This document shows positions 6,364-23,643 of a DNA stretch of 64,000 bases, one piece after another. The notes beneath the pieces were generated by a model, which did not search any database, was not told the origin of the DNA, and saw nothing but the letters and a program-made list of their open reading frames with translations. A program made the position numbers and the translations under genes. The stretch's first letter is position 1, and each line of letters starts with the position of its first letter. The stretch comes from Synechococcus sp. C9 (GTDB taxonomy: Bacteria > Cyanobacteriota > Cyanobacteriia > Gloeomargaritales > Gloeomargaritaceae): the NCBI RefSeq assembly GCF_022984075.1, contig NZ_JALAAD010000001.1:62001-126000 (forward strand), written 5' to 3'.

Positions 6364-9300
6364 ATGGGCGGGATAAAATTCAGGCTCTACTTACAAAAAT
6401 CAGCCGTCTGCAATACCCGGAACGATACGAGTTAAACACCTGGCAAATCGCCCCTGAAGACCAACCAGGTAATTTGCAAGATATAACAATACCCACAGCT
6501 TGGGGCGGCTATGATCAAACCATTTGGTGGTATAAAAAAGTAACTTTGCCACAAACCTGGACGAATCAAAAAATCGCACTCCGTATGGATATACCGGAAG
6601 GTTTAGTATTCATCAATAATCGAGCATATCATGGAATTGATATAAATCATCCAGAAATTATTTTACCTACAGAGATTTTCCCGGAATTTACCATCCAAAT
6701 TCAAGCCTATAGCGGGCGCAAACAGGAGCCAAATTTATGCCAGTTTAGCGAATTGGTCAGAGTCTGTCCAGAAGCTGAAAAAATTTATACCTGGTTAGAA
6801 CATTTACTTACCATGAGTGATGAGCATACCTGGGTGGAAAAGGGGTTAGAAAATTTAGCCAATTGTAACCCTGAGAAGGAATTAAATCTCTCGGAATTAA
6901 GTGCCCAATTATGCCATAATTTACGCATCAATTCAGGACCAGAACCTACACCACAAATTTATTTAATAGGACATTCGCATATTGATATTGTTTGGTTGTG
7001 GACGCTCAAAGAAACCCGCCGTAAACTCGCTCGCACCTTCACAACTGCACTGCATCTGATCCAGGAGTTCCCTGATTTTAGTTTCATGCAAGGGCAAGTC
7101 CAACTCTATGTTTATCTTAAACAAGATTATCCTGAACTTTATCAACACATTCAAACCCAAGTAAGATTAAAAAAATGGCACATTGAAGGAGCCGTATGGG
7201 TTGAACCAGATGGTAATTTAATCAATGGGGAATCTTGGGTCAGACAACTTGTTTATGGTAAAAGATTTTTTCAGCAGGAATTTAATACCAATTGCCAAAT
7301 TCTTTGGTTGCCCGATACCTTTGGCTATCAGGGTAATTTACCTCAAATACTACAACAAGCGGGAGTAAATTACTTTTTTACAACCAAACTGAATTGGAAT
7401 GATACGGGTGAATTTCCCTTGGATTCTTTTTGGTGGGAAGGTATTGACGGTACGCAAGTGTTAGCCCATCAACCGCCCGTAGGACTAGAAGGGTTATTGA
7501 GTATCAAAGATTTGGATAAAATGGGTCGTCAATATCAACAAAAAAGTGTAGCACCGGTGGTTTTACAAACCTTTGGCTATGGGGATGGCGGTGGCGGTGT
7601 CACTCGTAAACATCTGCAAATTTATGAATTAACTCAACCATTAAATCTACCATTTCCCCACCATATTTCTCACCCAATCGAATTTTTTCAGGCATTAGAG
7701 CAATATGGGGAGCATTTGCCAATTTGGCGGGGAGAACTATACTTAGAAAAACATCGGGGTACTTATACTACTCATAGTCGAACTAAGCAACTCCACCGGC
7801 AAGCTGAACGGGAGTTATATATCACTGAATTACTGGCAACATTAAGCTGGTTGCGTGGTGAACCATATCCTCGTGAATTGCTGGAAGATACTTGGAAATT
7901 GCTACTCCTGCAACAGTTCCATGATATTTTGCCTGGTACATTTATCCCAGATGCCTATCCCCAAATTCTTCGGGATTTTGAGCGGATTTTTGAGCAGTTA
8001 TCATTGATTCGTGAAGAGGTTTGGAAGCACTTAAAAATTCACCCATCCCAACCCAATACATGGACAGTTTTTAATCCCATTCATGCCCAGGAAAATGTTT
8101 ATGTGATTTTAACCTTACCGGAATCGGATTTAGAACCTATCGTCAATCAAATTTTATTGAAGATCGATGGTCAAGCAATTCCCCATCAACTATTACATGA
8201 ATCGAGTCCAATTCCCAGTTTATATTCAAAGGGTAATCAAGCTAGAAATATACTATGTTGCCTACCTAGATTAGAGGCGTTTAGCTTTGCAGAAATTAAA
8301 CTTGAAGTTACCCATCAATTAGCCATTAATCATGGGGAATTACAAGTACAACTGAATAAGCTAGAAAATAATTCCCTAAAATTAGTTTTAGATTCCCAAG
8401 GTAATTTGACTGAACTATGGGATAAACGTTTAGAAAAAAATCTTTTATCTCCAGAGCAAACAGGTGGGGAACTAAAGATATTTCTTGACCGACCAAAACA
8501 ATGGGAAGCCTGGGATATAGATGCGAATTACGCTACCTATCCATCCCCGGATATAAAATTAGTTTCTACCCAAATTATTGAACAAGGTATATTACGCTGT
8601 GGCATTGAGTTTAGTTACACAGTTCAGAATGACATAGGTTTATCATGCCAGATTAGCAAATCCATTTATTTATATCACGATTCCCCATTTGTAGAATTTT
8701 TTATTGATGTGGATTTAACGAATAACCAATACGCTCCATTTATCATGAAAATTTTATTTCCCTTAGCATTAAACTGCGAACAAGCCAGGTTTGATATTCC
8801 CTTTGGACTGATTCAACGTTCGACCAGTAACCCCGTTCAATTTGAAGTTCCCGCACTCAGTTGGGCAGATTTATCTATCAATGACTGGGGGGTGAGTTTA
8901 CTAAGTCGTGATAAATATGGGTTTAACGTTACTTCTAATACGCTGGGGTTAACCTTACTGCGAGTCGCCCATTATCCTCATCCCATTGAGCCTTGGCATT
9001 TAACTGATACCGAGATTACTGATGTGGGCATTCATCAATTTTGTTTCCGTTTGTACCCTCATCCTGGTGGTATTAATACTGCTCAAACGATACATAAAGC
9101 TCAAGAATTTCTCTATCCGCCCCTAGTCTTTCCAGGTAGTTTACAGCAAAGCATTCCCCAAATCATTCGCTTTAATGCCCCTAATCTAGTAGTTGGTTGT
9201 GTGAAAAAAGCGATGGATTGTGATGGTATGATTATCCGTATTTATGAAGCGTATGGGGAGGCAGTTCGTGCAGAAATTCAACCCCAATTCCGTGTACGAG

Positions 9301-16923: not shown

Positions 16924-18066
16924 CTAATCCCACAACCAACGCCCGGGGTTGAACCGATGCTGGGGGTCTAATTGGTCTTTGACCCGGCGCATTAACGCCA
17001 AACTATTGCCCCGCACATCCCAACGGTTGGGAATCGCTGGACCGCACACCACACTCACAAAGCCTTCAGGGTAAACAAATTGCCGGATTTTGGTGACCAG
17101 GGCTTCCACATCGGCGGGTAGTGGTGTTAGGACAGCCCACCCCAACCCCACCCCACTGTGCATTTGTACCCAGGCGTGGGGGGCAATCTGCTGGAGATAA
17201 GTCACCAGGGCAACGGTACGGGTGGGCAATACGCCAATTTTTAGTAAAAGCTGGGGTTGCGTCCCCGGCAGGCTGAGATGACGGGTTAACTGTTCCCCCG
17301 TCGCCGGGTCAAGTTCCTGCACCGCCGCCCCGGTCAACACCTGGGGCAATCGTGCCACCTGTTCCGCCACCGCCACGGCTGTCCCCCGCAGTTCCAACCA
17401 CAAACCCATCTGCGCCGGATAGCCCAATTGCGCCACCAGAGGGGCGGAGAGCACATCCCAAGCCGTGGGTTGCAACGCCGAGTCCAACAGCCCCTGCCGC
17501 CATTGCTCCAAGTCCTCCCCCTGGATGAGAAAACTCCGGGTCACGGGGGGAAGGGGATACAGACGCAAGGTCGCCTGGGTAATACAGCCCAAGGTGCCCC
17601 AGGAGCCGGTCAGCAGTTTCATCAGGTCGTAACCCGCCACATTTTTCACCACCTGCCCCCCCGCTTTGGTCTGGGCACCGTCCGGGCGCACCCAGCGAAT
17701 CCCCAATACCCCATCCCGCACCCCGCCATACCGTTGCCGCCACGCCCCCGCATCCGCCGTCGCCATAATGCCCCCAACCGTCGCCTGGTCTGGGTACAGG
17801 GGTTGCACCGCCCAAAACTGCCCCTGCGCCGCCAACACGCTCCGTAAATCTACCCACTTCACCCCCACTTCCACCGTCACGACCAAATCCGCCACCTCGT
17901 AATTTAGAATACGATTTAATGCGGCTGTACTAATGGTTATCCCCACCGAATCTCGCTGATTACCCCAATGGGCTTTGCTGTTTTGCCCTGCCAAGTGTAC
18001 CGCCTGCGCCCCGGATTGCCGCAAAATTTCCCCCAGTTCCGCCCCGCTCGCCGGTCGCATCGTCAC
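16924..18066 (-). CDS. glcE: Glycolate dehydrogenase FAD-binding subunit
   Basis: A 380-residue FAD-linked oxidoreductase subunit of the GlcE type. The FAD-binding PCMH-like region runs about 1-175, with ATVGGIMATADAGAWRQRYGG, RWVRPDGAQTKAGGQVVKNVAGYDLMKL and GSWGTLGCITQATLRLYPLP. It ends QHRFNPGRWLWD, the family C-terminus. GlcDEF oxidises glycolate in photorespiration; GlcD and GlcF are not in the window. Start either GTG 18066 or ATG 18060, two codons apart. Its 5' end borders the DnaA-box cluster. Confidence 0.9.
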   Translation of the reverse strand: MTMRPASGAELGEILRQSGAQAVHLAGQNSKAHWGNQRDSVGITISTAALNRILNYEVADLVVTVEVGVKWVDLRSVLAAQGQFWAVQPLYPDQATVGGIMATADAGAWRQRYGGVRDGVLGIRWVRPDGAQTKAGGQVVKNVAGYDLMKLLTGSWGTLGCITQATLRLYPLPPVTRSFLIQGEDLEQWRQGLLDSALQPTAWDVLSAPLVAQLGYPAQMGLWLELRGTAVAVAEQVARLPQVLTGAAVQELDPATGEQLTRHLSLPGTQPQLLLKIGVLPTRTVALVTYLQQIAPHAWVQMHSGVGLGWAVLTPLPADVEALVTKIRQFVYPEGFVSVVCGPAIPNRWDVRGNSLALMRRVKDQLDPQHRFNPGRWLWD

Positions 18067-18100
18067 ACGAATTGTAATAATTTTTCACATTTTGCCCAGG

Positions 18101-18206
18101 TTATCCCCAGGTTATCCCCAGTTATCCCCAAGTTATCCACAGGTTGTCCCCAGTTATCCACAGGCTCTAGCGTTATTATCCCCATTCCAGCCCCCCCTGT
18201 GGATAA
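18101..18206 (+). other. Phased DnaA-box cluster, possible replication origin or DnaA-binding locus
   Basis: Two perfect consensus DnaA boxes TTATCCACA (18133-18141, 18154-18162) and one in reverse, TGTGGATAA (18198-18206), lie with four TTATCCCCA near-matches (18101, 18112, 18122, 18176) and TTGTCCCCA (18144). Start-to-start spacing is 11, 10, 11, 11, 10 and 22 bases, i.e. one helical turn, so the boxes face the same side of the helix. An AT-rich stretch (18211-18385, with TTTGTAAAAAATTTGTAACG) follows, as expected of an unwinding element. The gap (18067-18392) has divergent genes. No dnaA or dnaN is visible nearby, so oriC status is inference; a DnaA-titration or DnaA-regulated promoter region is the alternative. 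Confidence 0.7.
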
Positions 18207-18392
18207 CTTTTCCCTGTAACGGAATGTAACAAAAATCCGCCTCAAACCCCGTGTTCTCGTTAAGCATTGAGAATTATTACAAAACCGGATGATTGAGCGA
18301 ATTTGACAGCCTGGCTTGGTTTCGGCTGAAATAGCTTCAGGTAAGAGCCGTCGAATTTGTAAAAAATTTGTAACGTTACGGGGCAAAGAATT

Positions 18393-18593
18393 ATGAGTGG
18401 TCGGGTGGTGGTGCGGGCGGAGATTCCGGGGGAATTGCATGAGAGTTTGGAGGGGTATTTAGCCAAGCATCCCGATTGGGATGTGCATCGGGTGTGCAGT
18501 GCGGCATTGTCCCTGTTTTTACTTCAGAATGCGGAGAGTGACCGGCGGGTGGCGCGGGTTTATTTGGATACCCTATTTCGGGTGCCCCGGTAG
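18393..18593 (+). CDS. DUF2811 family protein
   Basis: A 66-residue protein matching the cyanobacterial DUF2811 family: AEIPGELHESLEGYLAKHPDWD, then AALSLFLLQN and RRVARVYLDTLF. It resembles a small ribbon-helix-helix-like or helical domain; function unknown. It is the first gene right of the DnaA-box cluster, on the opposite strand to glcE. The GT9 gene follows about 40 bases downstream. Confidence 0.8.
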   Translation: MSGRVVVRAEIPGELHESLEGYLAKHPDWDVHRVCSAALSLFLLQNAESDRRVARVYLDTLFRVPR

Positions 18594-22309: not shown

Positions 22310-22332
22310 CCCCTCGTTCTGAGGGGTTTTTT
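22310..22332 (+). terminator. Rho-independent terminator after the porin gene
   Basis: Perfect six-base-pair stem CCCCTC / GAGGGG around a GTTCT loop, followed by six T residues. It lies 30 bases after the porin stop, and the T-run reaches the stop of the convergent Uma2 gene. Confidence 0.92.
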
Positions 22333-22978
22333 ATTGCCTTTGAATTTGACCCATAAACCAAGTGGTAACGGCGGCTTGATGTTCGGTGCGACTCCGTTGC
22401 AAAGCCTGTTCCAGTAAATTTAATCCCAATCCGGGCAATACCTGGGAGGTACGAATACGGCGACTACTGCCATCCGGGCTAATGGCAAAACCAAAAATTT
22501 GCTGAATTTCCACCGCCACAATCCAATACTCAGGAATCCCCAAATCCTCGTACTGCAAGCGTTTGGCACCCAGGTCATCCCCCAGGGACGTATCGCTGAT
22601 TTCAATGACTAAATCGGGTAGGGGATAGGTGTCCACATCCACCACCCGTGTCCCCCAGGGAATCCGATTGGCATTTTCCCCCACATAAACGGAAATATCC
22701 GGTTGGAATTCATTGCGCCCCGCTTGCCGATAGGAACAGGCATCCTTGACCGTGGCTAATAGGTGCCTTTGCCCGACCCAAAACGTGAGCATAAATAAAA
22801 GCAGGGCATGGTCATTGGCATGGTCAGAGCCGGTGGACATGGGTTCAAAACGATAGTGCCCTTGGTAATAATACCCCTTGAGTTTGCTATTTTTGGGGTC
22901 GTCACTCATGGACACAAATTCATCCCAATTGGCTCTTTGCCAAGTATTTAAGGGGGTTTGGGTCACACTCAAAGTCAT
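22331..22978 (-). CDS. Uma2 family PD-(D/E)XK nuclease, copy 1
   Basis: A 215-residue Uma2 (DUF820) protein. The nuclease core is DLVIEISDTSLGDDLGAKRLQYEDLGIPEYWIV, with the D...E.S..D and lysine pattern. These are cyanobacterial, often transposon-associated nucleases of unknown role. It is about 90 percent or more identical by eye to the neighbouring copy 2 over both ends, but residues about 63-85 differ completely (LLLFMLTFWVGQRHLLA against the other copy's VLVGLFAALRGIA). The ATG at 22978 matches copy 2's start. Confidence 0.85.
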   Translation of the reverse strand: MTLSVTQTPLNTWQRANWDEFVSMSDDPKNSKLKGYYYQGHYRFEPMSTGSDHANDHALLLFMLTFWVGQRHLLATVKDACSYRQAGRNEFQPDISVYVGENANRIPWGTRVVDVDTYPLPDLVIEISDTSLGDDLGAKRLQYEDLGIPEYWIVAVEIQQIFGFAISPDGSSRRIRTSQVLPGLGLNLLEQALQRSRTEHQAAVTTWFMGQIQRQ

Positions 22979-22983
22979 GGGTT

Positions 22984-23643
22984 TTAGGGGTGATTCAATT
23001 GATGTTTTACCTGTTCCATAAACCAAGCAGTAACGGCGGCTTGATGTTCGGTGCGACTCCGTTGCAAAGCCTGTTCCAGTAAATTTAACGCTAATCCGGG
23101 CAATACCTGGGAGGTACGAATACGGCGACTACTGCCATCGGGGCTAATGGCAAAACCAAAAATTTGCTGAATTTCCACCGCCACAATCCAATACTCAGGA
23201 ATCCCCAAATCCTCATACTGCAAGCGTTTGGCGCCCAGGTCATCCCCCAGGGACGTATCGCTGATTTCAATGACTAAATCGGGCAGGGGATAGGTGTCCA
23301 CATCCACCACCCGTGTCCCCCAGGGAATCCGATTGGCATTTTCCCCCACATAAACGGAAATATCCGGTTGGAATTCATTGCGCCCCAACTGCCGATAGGA
23401 ACAGGCATCATGGGCATTCATGGCAATACCCCGCAGGGCGGCAAAGAGACCGACCAAAACGCTAATCGTCATGTGGTCTTTAGAATGGTCGGAGCCGGTG
23501 GACATGGGTTCAAAACGGTAGTGCCCTTGGTAATAATACCCCTTGAGTTTGCTATTTTTGGAGTCGTCGCTCATGGACACAAATTCATCCCAATTGGCTC
23601 TTTGCCAAGTATTTAAGGGGGGTTGGGTCACACTCAAAGTCAT
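22984..23643 (-). CDS. Uma2 family PD-(D/E)XK nuclease, copy 2
   Basis: A 219-residue Uma2 protein in tandem with copy 1 (stop-to-start gap five bases). Start, C-terminal nuclease core and even the flanking bases are near-identical to copy 1, showing a recent duplication. The central variable segment differs (HMTISVLVGLFAALRGIAMNAH). The C-terminus diverges slightly (VKHQLNHP). The pair is followed upstream by a MITE of family A. The two copies span a repeat of roughly 0.66 kb that could recombine. Confidence 0.85.
   Translation of the reverse strand: MTLSVTQPPLNTWQRANWDEFVSMSDDSKNSKLKGYYYQGHYRFEPMSTGSDHSKDHMTISVLVGLFAALRGIAMNAHDACSYRQLGRNEFQPDISVYVGENANRIPWGTRVVDVDTYPLPDLVIEISDTSLGDDLGAKRLQYEDLGIPEYWIVAVEIQQIFGFAISPDGSSRRIRTSQVLPGLALNLLEQALQRSRTEHQAAVTAWFMEQVKHQLNHP

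Follow-up and report, generated by a model that had tools for sequence, protein, structure and literature searches.

A phased DnaA-box array upstream of the DUF2811 gene is a probable DnaA-binding control region conserved across cyanobacteria

DnaA is known to act as a transcription factor, and clusters of DnaA boxes are found outside oriC at datA and DARS in Escherichia coli and at further sites in Bacillus subtilis. At the sda promoter of B. subtilis, in which eight DnaA boxes have been counted (PMC4447404), DnaA directly activates the gene for a small protein, Sda, that inhibits Spo0A activation, and ATP-DnaA is preferred in binding. At origins, the basal unwinding system is described as comprising a DnaA box, DnaA-trios and AT-rich DNA (PMC8287927). 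The role of DnaA in cyanobacteria is stated to be unclear for Synechocystis 6803, Nostoc 7120 and Synechococcus 7002, which replicate without DnaA-oriC (PMC7198777).

We analyzed a 64-kb stretch (hereafter the window; G000:C1:62001-126000) of the 2.96-Mb genome of Synechococcus sp. C9, which contains an array of DnaA boxes at C1:80101. The glcE protein encoded in the window shares 95% identity with that of Gloeomargaritales cyanobacterium VI4D9 and 65% with that of a Gloeomargarita MAG, which places the organism within or beside Gloeomargarita. Within positions 18101-18206 of the window, seven boxes have at most one mismatch to the consensus TTATCCACA and an eighth has two; boxes 4, 6 and 8 are perfect (Table 1). 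Successive boxes are 11, 10, 11, 11, 10, 22 and 22 bp apart. Compared to the seven boxes observed in 106 bp at up to one mismatch, the maximum was two across sixty simulated 64-kb windows matched to the real one in dinucleotide content. The box scan and the simulation confirm what a preliminary description of this DNA had reported, namely seven or eight boxes, three of them perfect, within 106 bases, with the final box inverted, and the coordinates bear out glcE and DUF2811 as the flanking genes. The 10- to 11-base step given there holds for the first six boxes but not afterwards, where the steps span two helical turns (22 bp). Elsewhere in the window (22331-23643), two adjacent minus-strand ORFs of 231 and 219 aa are near-identical except for a minor part of their sequence and look like the product of a recent tandem duplication.

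Table 1. Features of the array and its surroundings (positions in the window; class-wide positions are relative to the last direct box)
Feature	Position	Strand	Description
glcE	16924..18066	-	Divergent neighbor; adjoins the array only in this genus
AT-rich element	18073..18089	+	TGTAATAATTTTTCACA; upstream edge of the array; read from sequence
DnaA box 1	18101..18109	+	TTATCCCCA; class-wide position approximately -55
DnaA box 2	18112..18120	+	TTATCCCCA; class-wide position approximately -43
DnaA box 3	18122..18130	+	TTATCCCCA; class-wide position approximately -32
DnaA box 4	18133..18141	+	TTATCCACA, perfect; class-wide position -21, strongly conserved
DnaA-like box 5	18144..18152	+	TTGTCCCCA, two mismatches; weak in relatives too
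DnaA box 6	18154..18162	+	TTATCCACA, perfect; ends the phased run and anchors the class-wide array
DnaA box 7	18176..18184	+	TTATCCCCA; lineage-specific
Inverted DnaA box 8	18198..18206	-	TTATCCACA; 44 bp past box 6
HLR1-like site (RpaB type)	18215..18230	-	GTTACATTCCGTTACA; between the array and DUF2811
Putative DUF2811 promoter	18303..18332	+	TTGACA (18303-18308), 18-bp gap, TGAAAT (18327-18332)
DUF2811 gene (PF10929)	18393..18593	+	66 aa; family match E 8.9e-26; conserved partner of the array

The gene downstream of the array encodes a protein of the DUF2811 family, which we found in 377 of 390 genomes of the class and in none of 48 genomes from the same phylum outside it. Triple-box clusters are frequent upstream of DUF2811 in the wider class. 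We counted the box pattern TTWTCCMCA in the 800 bp upstream of the gene, using downstream DNA of equal length as a control, in 122 regions drawn from the best 30 DUF2811 loci, 60 chosen regions and 30 further loci across the class; regions from three dnaA-less genomes were left out of this count. At least one box was present in 121 of the 122 regions, all from dnaA-bearing cyanobacteria, and 336 of the 367 upstream boxes lie on the strand of the gene. The downstream control contained 6 boxes, and the reversed pattern occurred 7 times upstream. The sole region without a box belongs to one DUF2811 copy of a genome (G083) whose second copy has three.

The spacing of the boxes is conserved along with their presence. 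Distances between successive direct boxes cluster at 10-12 bp (41 cases), 20-22 bp (112), 31-34 bp (15), 43-44 bp (22) and 54-56 bp (6), and a direct and an inverted box are 44-46 bp apart in 23 regions. Alignment of the class on the last direct box (position 0) places the remaining direct boxes at the positions listed in Table 1 and an inverted TGGGGAT at approximately +44 to +48, which correspond one to one to boxes 1, 2, 3, 4, 6 and 8 of the window. When the 122 regions are aligned on box 6, its bases are 87-99% conserved. This class-wide register supports the helical phasing proposed in the preliminary description. Within the genus, box 7 is intact in three genomes (G002, G004 and G005) and degenerate in three others (G001, G003 and G006).

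Reduced arrays occur in the small genomes of family f2 and in a few others; most consist of a single direct box, in some cases accompanied by the inverted box, and they score lowest on the array profile. Two genomes of f31/g45 (G068 and G217) retain dnaA with a degraded array. Loss of the array in family f32, as read from single-box counts, was rejected, since in the alignment its boxes are degenerate but hold the common register. The module is present in G020 and G037. In G017 (L061 4100-4620), we observed repeated copies of TTATCCCCAATATCCACAG and one more DnaA-like box, approximately 98 bp or more apart. We read the array as a probable control region of DUF2811 that is ancient and has kept one form throughout the oxygenic cyanobacteria.

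Of the 336 genomes with a completeness of at least 90%, 13 have no real match to dnaA and 12 have no DUF2811; 10 lack both genes, 3 lack only dnaA, 2 lack only DUF2811 and 321 have both. DUF2811 is therefore missing in 10/13 dnaA-less compared to 2/323 dnaA-bearing genomes, the latter two (G033 and G150) being drafts. The Fisher p value for this co-absence, 4e-15, ignores phylogeny and so overstates the evidence, as the genomes are related. A control family, PF11347, is kept in all 13 dnaA-less genomes. By family and genus label, dnaA has been lost in approximately six lineages (f36; f42; f32/g84; f32/g87; f35/g88; f31/g147), and DUF2811 is also gone in four of them (f36, f42, f32/g84 and f32/g87).

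Three dnaA-less genomes retain DUF2811, and in two of these the array has decayed. G149 has an intact DUF2811 gene with no boxes and an array score at background; a dnaA-bearing genome of its genus, G327, has three boxes. In G355, a one-contig genome, DUF2811 (G355:C1:673943-674143; L249) contains two in-frame stops and is apparently a decaying gene, again with a background array score, and G349, of the same genus, has both dnaA and an intact array. In the third genome, G385, DUF2811 persists along with most of its array (score 72.9, one box intact), which may reflect a recent loss of dnaA. Because the array has decayed in dnaA-less genomes that retain DUF2811, with G385 as the one exception, these observations support DnaA as the ligand of the array. 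We consider it probable, on the strength of these sequence comparisons, that DnaA binds the array and thereby controls the DUF2811 gene. Weighing against this reading are the intact DUF2811 of dnaA-less G149, the largely preserved array of G385, the lack of DUF2811 in the dnaA-bearing drafts G033 and G150, and the distance between the array and the candidate promoter.

Searching the genome for other DnaA-box clusters, as the preliminary description had proposed, with a paired-box pattern revealed exactly one more, at C1:160461-160615, directly upstream of dnaN (C1:160790-161929; dnaA lies at C1:744330). This cluster, approximately 80 kb from the array, is denser, with 12 boxes and one paired box, and continues into CTACTACTA DnaA-trio triplets and then AT-rich DNA. 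The CTACTACTA trios were present in the dnaN clusters of all 8 family genomes examined. Both the array and the dnaN cluster occur in 7/7 genomes of the genus and also in a sister genus (G007). Where the genome is complete or nearly so, 80 kb to about 600 kb separate the two.

This layout would also be compatible with a site for DnaA titration or inactivation that stands in front of DUF2811 by chance, the gene itself not being controlled by DnaA. The array is dense, the genome has only one other such cluster, and the array lies well apart from dnaN. A similar, third cluster is found in some other cyanobacteria (L104, L112, L119, L120 and L130; near position 1501) near the 3′ ends of guaA and/or the gene for a cation-diffusion transporter, a location that makes a role as promoter improbable; the paired-box pattern detected no cluster of this type in Gloeomargarita. 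However, linkage to a single gene across the class and on plasmids, with strand and register constant, is unexpected for a pure titration site, as is the loss of DUF2811 together with dnaA. We regard a pure titration site as unlikely, and titration may be a second role beside promoter control.

The plasmid copies bear on which gene the array belongs to. Plasmid-borne DUF2811 was found in Acaryochloris, Nostoc, Leptolyngbya and Aulosira, and all four copies examined (from Acaryochloris and Nostoc) have DnaA boxes 338-386 bp upstream. Because these copies keep their boxes amid different neighbors, the array travels with DUF2811. Querying plasmids with the nucleotide sequence of the locus gave no match, and no DUF2811 was found in viral contigs and phages. 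The array sits between glcE and DUF2811 in each of the seven genomes of the genus, with 35 bp between box 1 and the start codon of glcE, so that in this divergent intergenic region DnaA could in principle control glcE, which encodes a glycolate oxidase subunit. Yet the sister genus keeps the array skeleton (21, 11, 21 and 44 bp) beside DUF2811 with glcE not adjacent, and glcE adjoins DUF2811 in 0/64 loci outside the genus, making control of glcE very improbable as the reason for the array.

The preliminary description had also offered the array as a possible replication origin. The sequence does not support this, given the denser 12-box cluster with CTACTACTA trios adjoining dnaN. The combination of a box, a GC-rich spacer and TAG/CTA trios that marks an oriC of the basal-unwinding type is not found at the array. 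In 20-kb stretches sampled from two Gloeomargarita genomes, GC skew follows an irregular course and points to no origin; most cyanobacterial skews are reported to be irregular (PMC7198777). Of the two findings that the preliminary description had named as counting against an origin here, the denser dnaN cluster was found and a skew-based origin elsewhere was not located. That the array is a second or alternative origin is scarcely credible: its boxes are phased and, in the window, box 6 is followed by three NTN triplets that form a permissive run, but that run is missing in G003 and G007, no CTA run follows the array boxes in the window, neither dnaN nor dnaA is at the array, and the trio-bearing cluster is at dnaN throughout the family genomes examined.

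We return to the array as a control region for DUF2811 and to the elements around it. A TTGACA lies within 260 bp upstream of DUF2811 in 93/125 regions, compared to 6 downstream. The array is approximately 100-200 bp upstream of the candidate -35 element in this genome and farther in others. The HLR1-like site, which resembles the RpaB sites described in PMC9241938, is the sole match within one mismatch in the window, and HLR1 cores occur in 18/125 upstream and no downstream regions. Related to the AT-rich element at the upstream edge, a GYAATTCTTA element occurs at the matching place in other cyanobacteria (43/125 upstream regions, none downstream). An element resembling TGTAATAATTTTT flanks both Gloeomargarita DnaA clusters (the array, and G000:C1:160461-160670, L014 near 8400-8670) and may be an accessory site common to the two.

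From the sequence we infer that DnaA binds the array, as we do the sign of DUF2811 regulation. DnaA would load on the phased direct boxes and on the inverted box 44 bp further. The resulting oligomer would occupy a single face of the DNA, ahead of a promoter of the TTGACA type, and DUF2811 expression would be switched by the amount or the ATP state of DnaA. Through the adjacent HLR1-like site, RpaB would probably add a light/redox input. Such an input beside the array would be compatible with the dependence of DnaA-oriC binding on light and photosynthesis in S. elongatus (PMC6478999).

As DUF2811 is usually lost when dnaA is lost, the protein most likely acts in the DnaA pathway and not in an unrelated process. 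We considered whether it might be a ribbon-helix-helix protein, as a sequence pattern suggested. Pfam RHH families gave no match to DUF2811 even at E 10 and the PDB profile search gave none, so that neither supports this assignment; the predicted structure has a low confidence (pLDDT 65), at which its lack of fold matches says little. A literature search, with subscription papers mostly outside its scope, returned no mention of DUF2811 and no DnaA ChIP-seq in S. elongatus.

Array and gene are usually lost together with dnaA, and the array is therefore a candidate for an unrecognized DnaA target, one that is concrete and nearly universal in cyanobacteria. It links a small uncharacterized protein to the question of what DnaA does in these organisms, and it is present in Gloeomargarita, the lineage regarded as closest to plastids among living organisms. 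More tentatively, DUF2811 could be a regulator of DnaA or of initiation that is itself under DnaA control. Such a feedback module would be as old as the oxygenic cyanobacteria, and DnaA would be kept for DUF2811 control where replication no longer needs it; we hold this fuller picture to be possible, while leaning against it.

Compared to known systems, the array has the box sequence of the cyanobacterial oriC at dnaN and, like it, combines phased direct with inverted boxes, but the paired boxes, DnaA-trios and AT-rich DNA of that oriC are not conserved in it. Like datA, DARS and the B. subtilis clusters, it is a DnaA-box cluster outside oriC, and in contrast to them it is tied to the upstream region of one gene throughout the class. 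It resembles the sda promoter in that a DnaA-box cluster, here conserved with the gene, stands upstream of a small-protein gene, and control of DUF2811 by DnaA would be analogous. DUF2811 belongs to a family unrelated to Sda that is found only in oxygenic cyanobacteria, and, unlike the sda boxes, its array holds one register, inverted box included, across the whole class.
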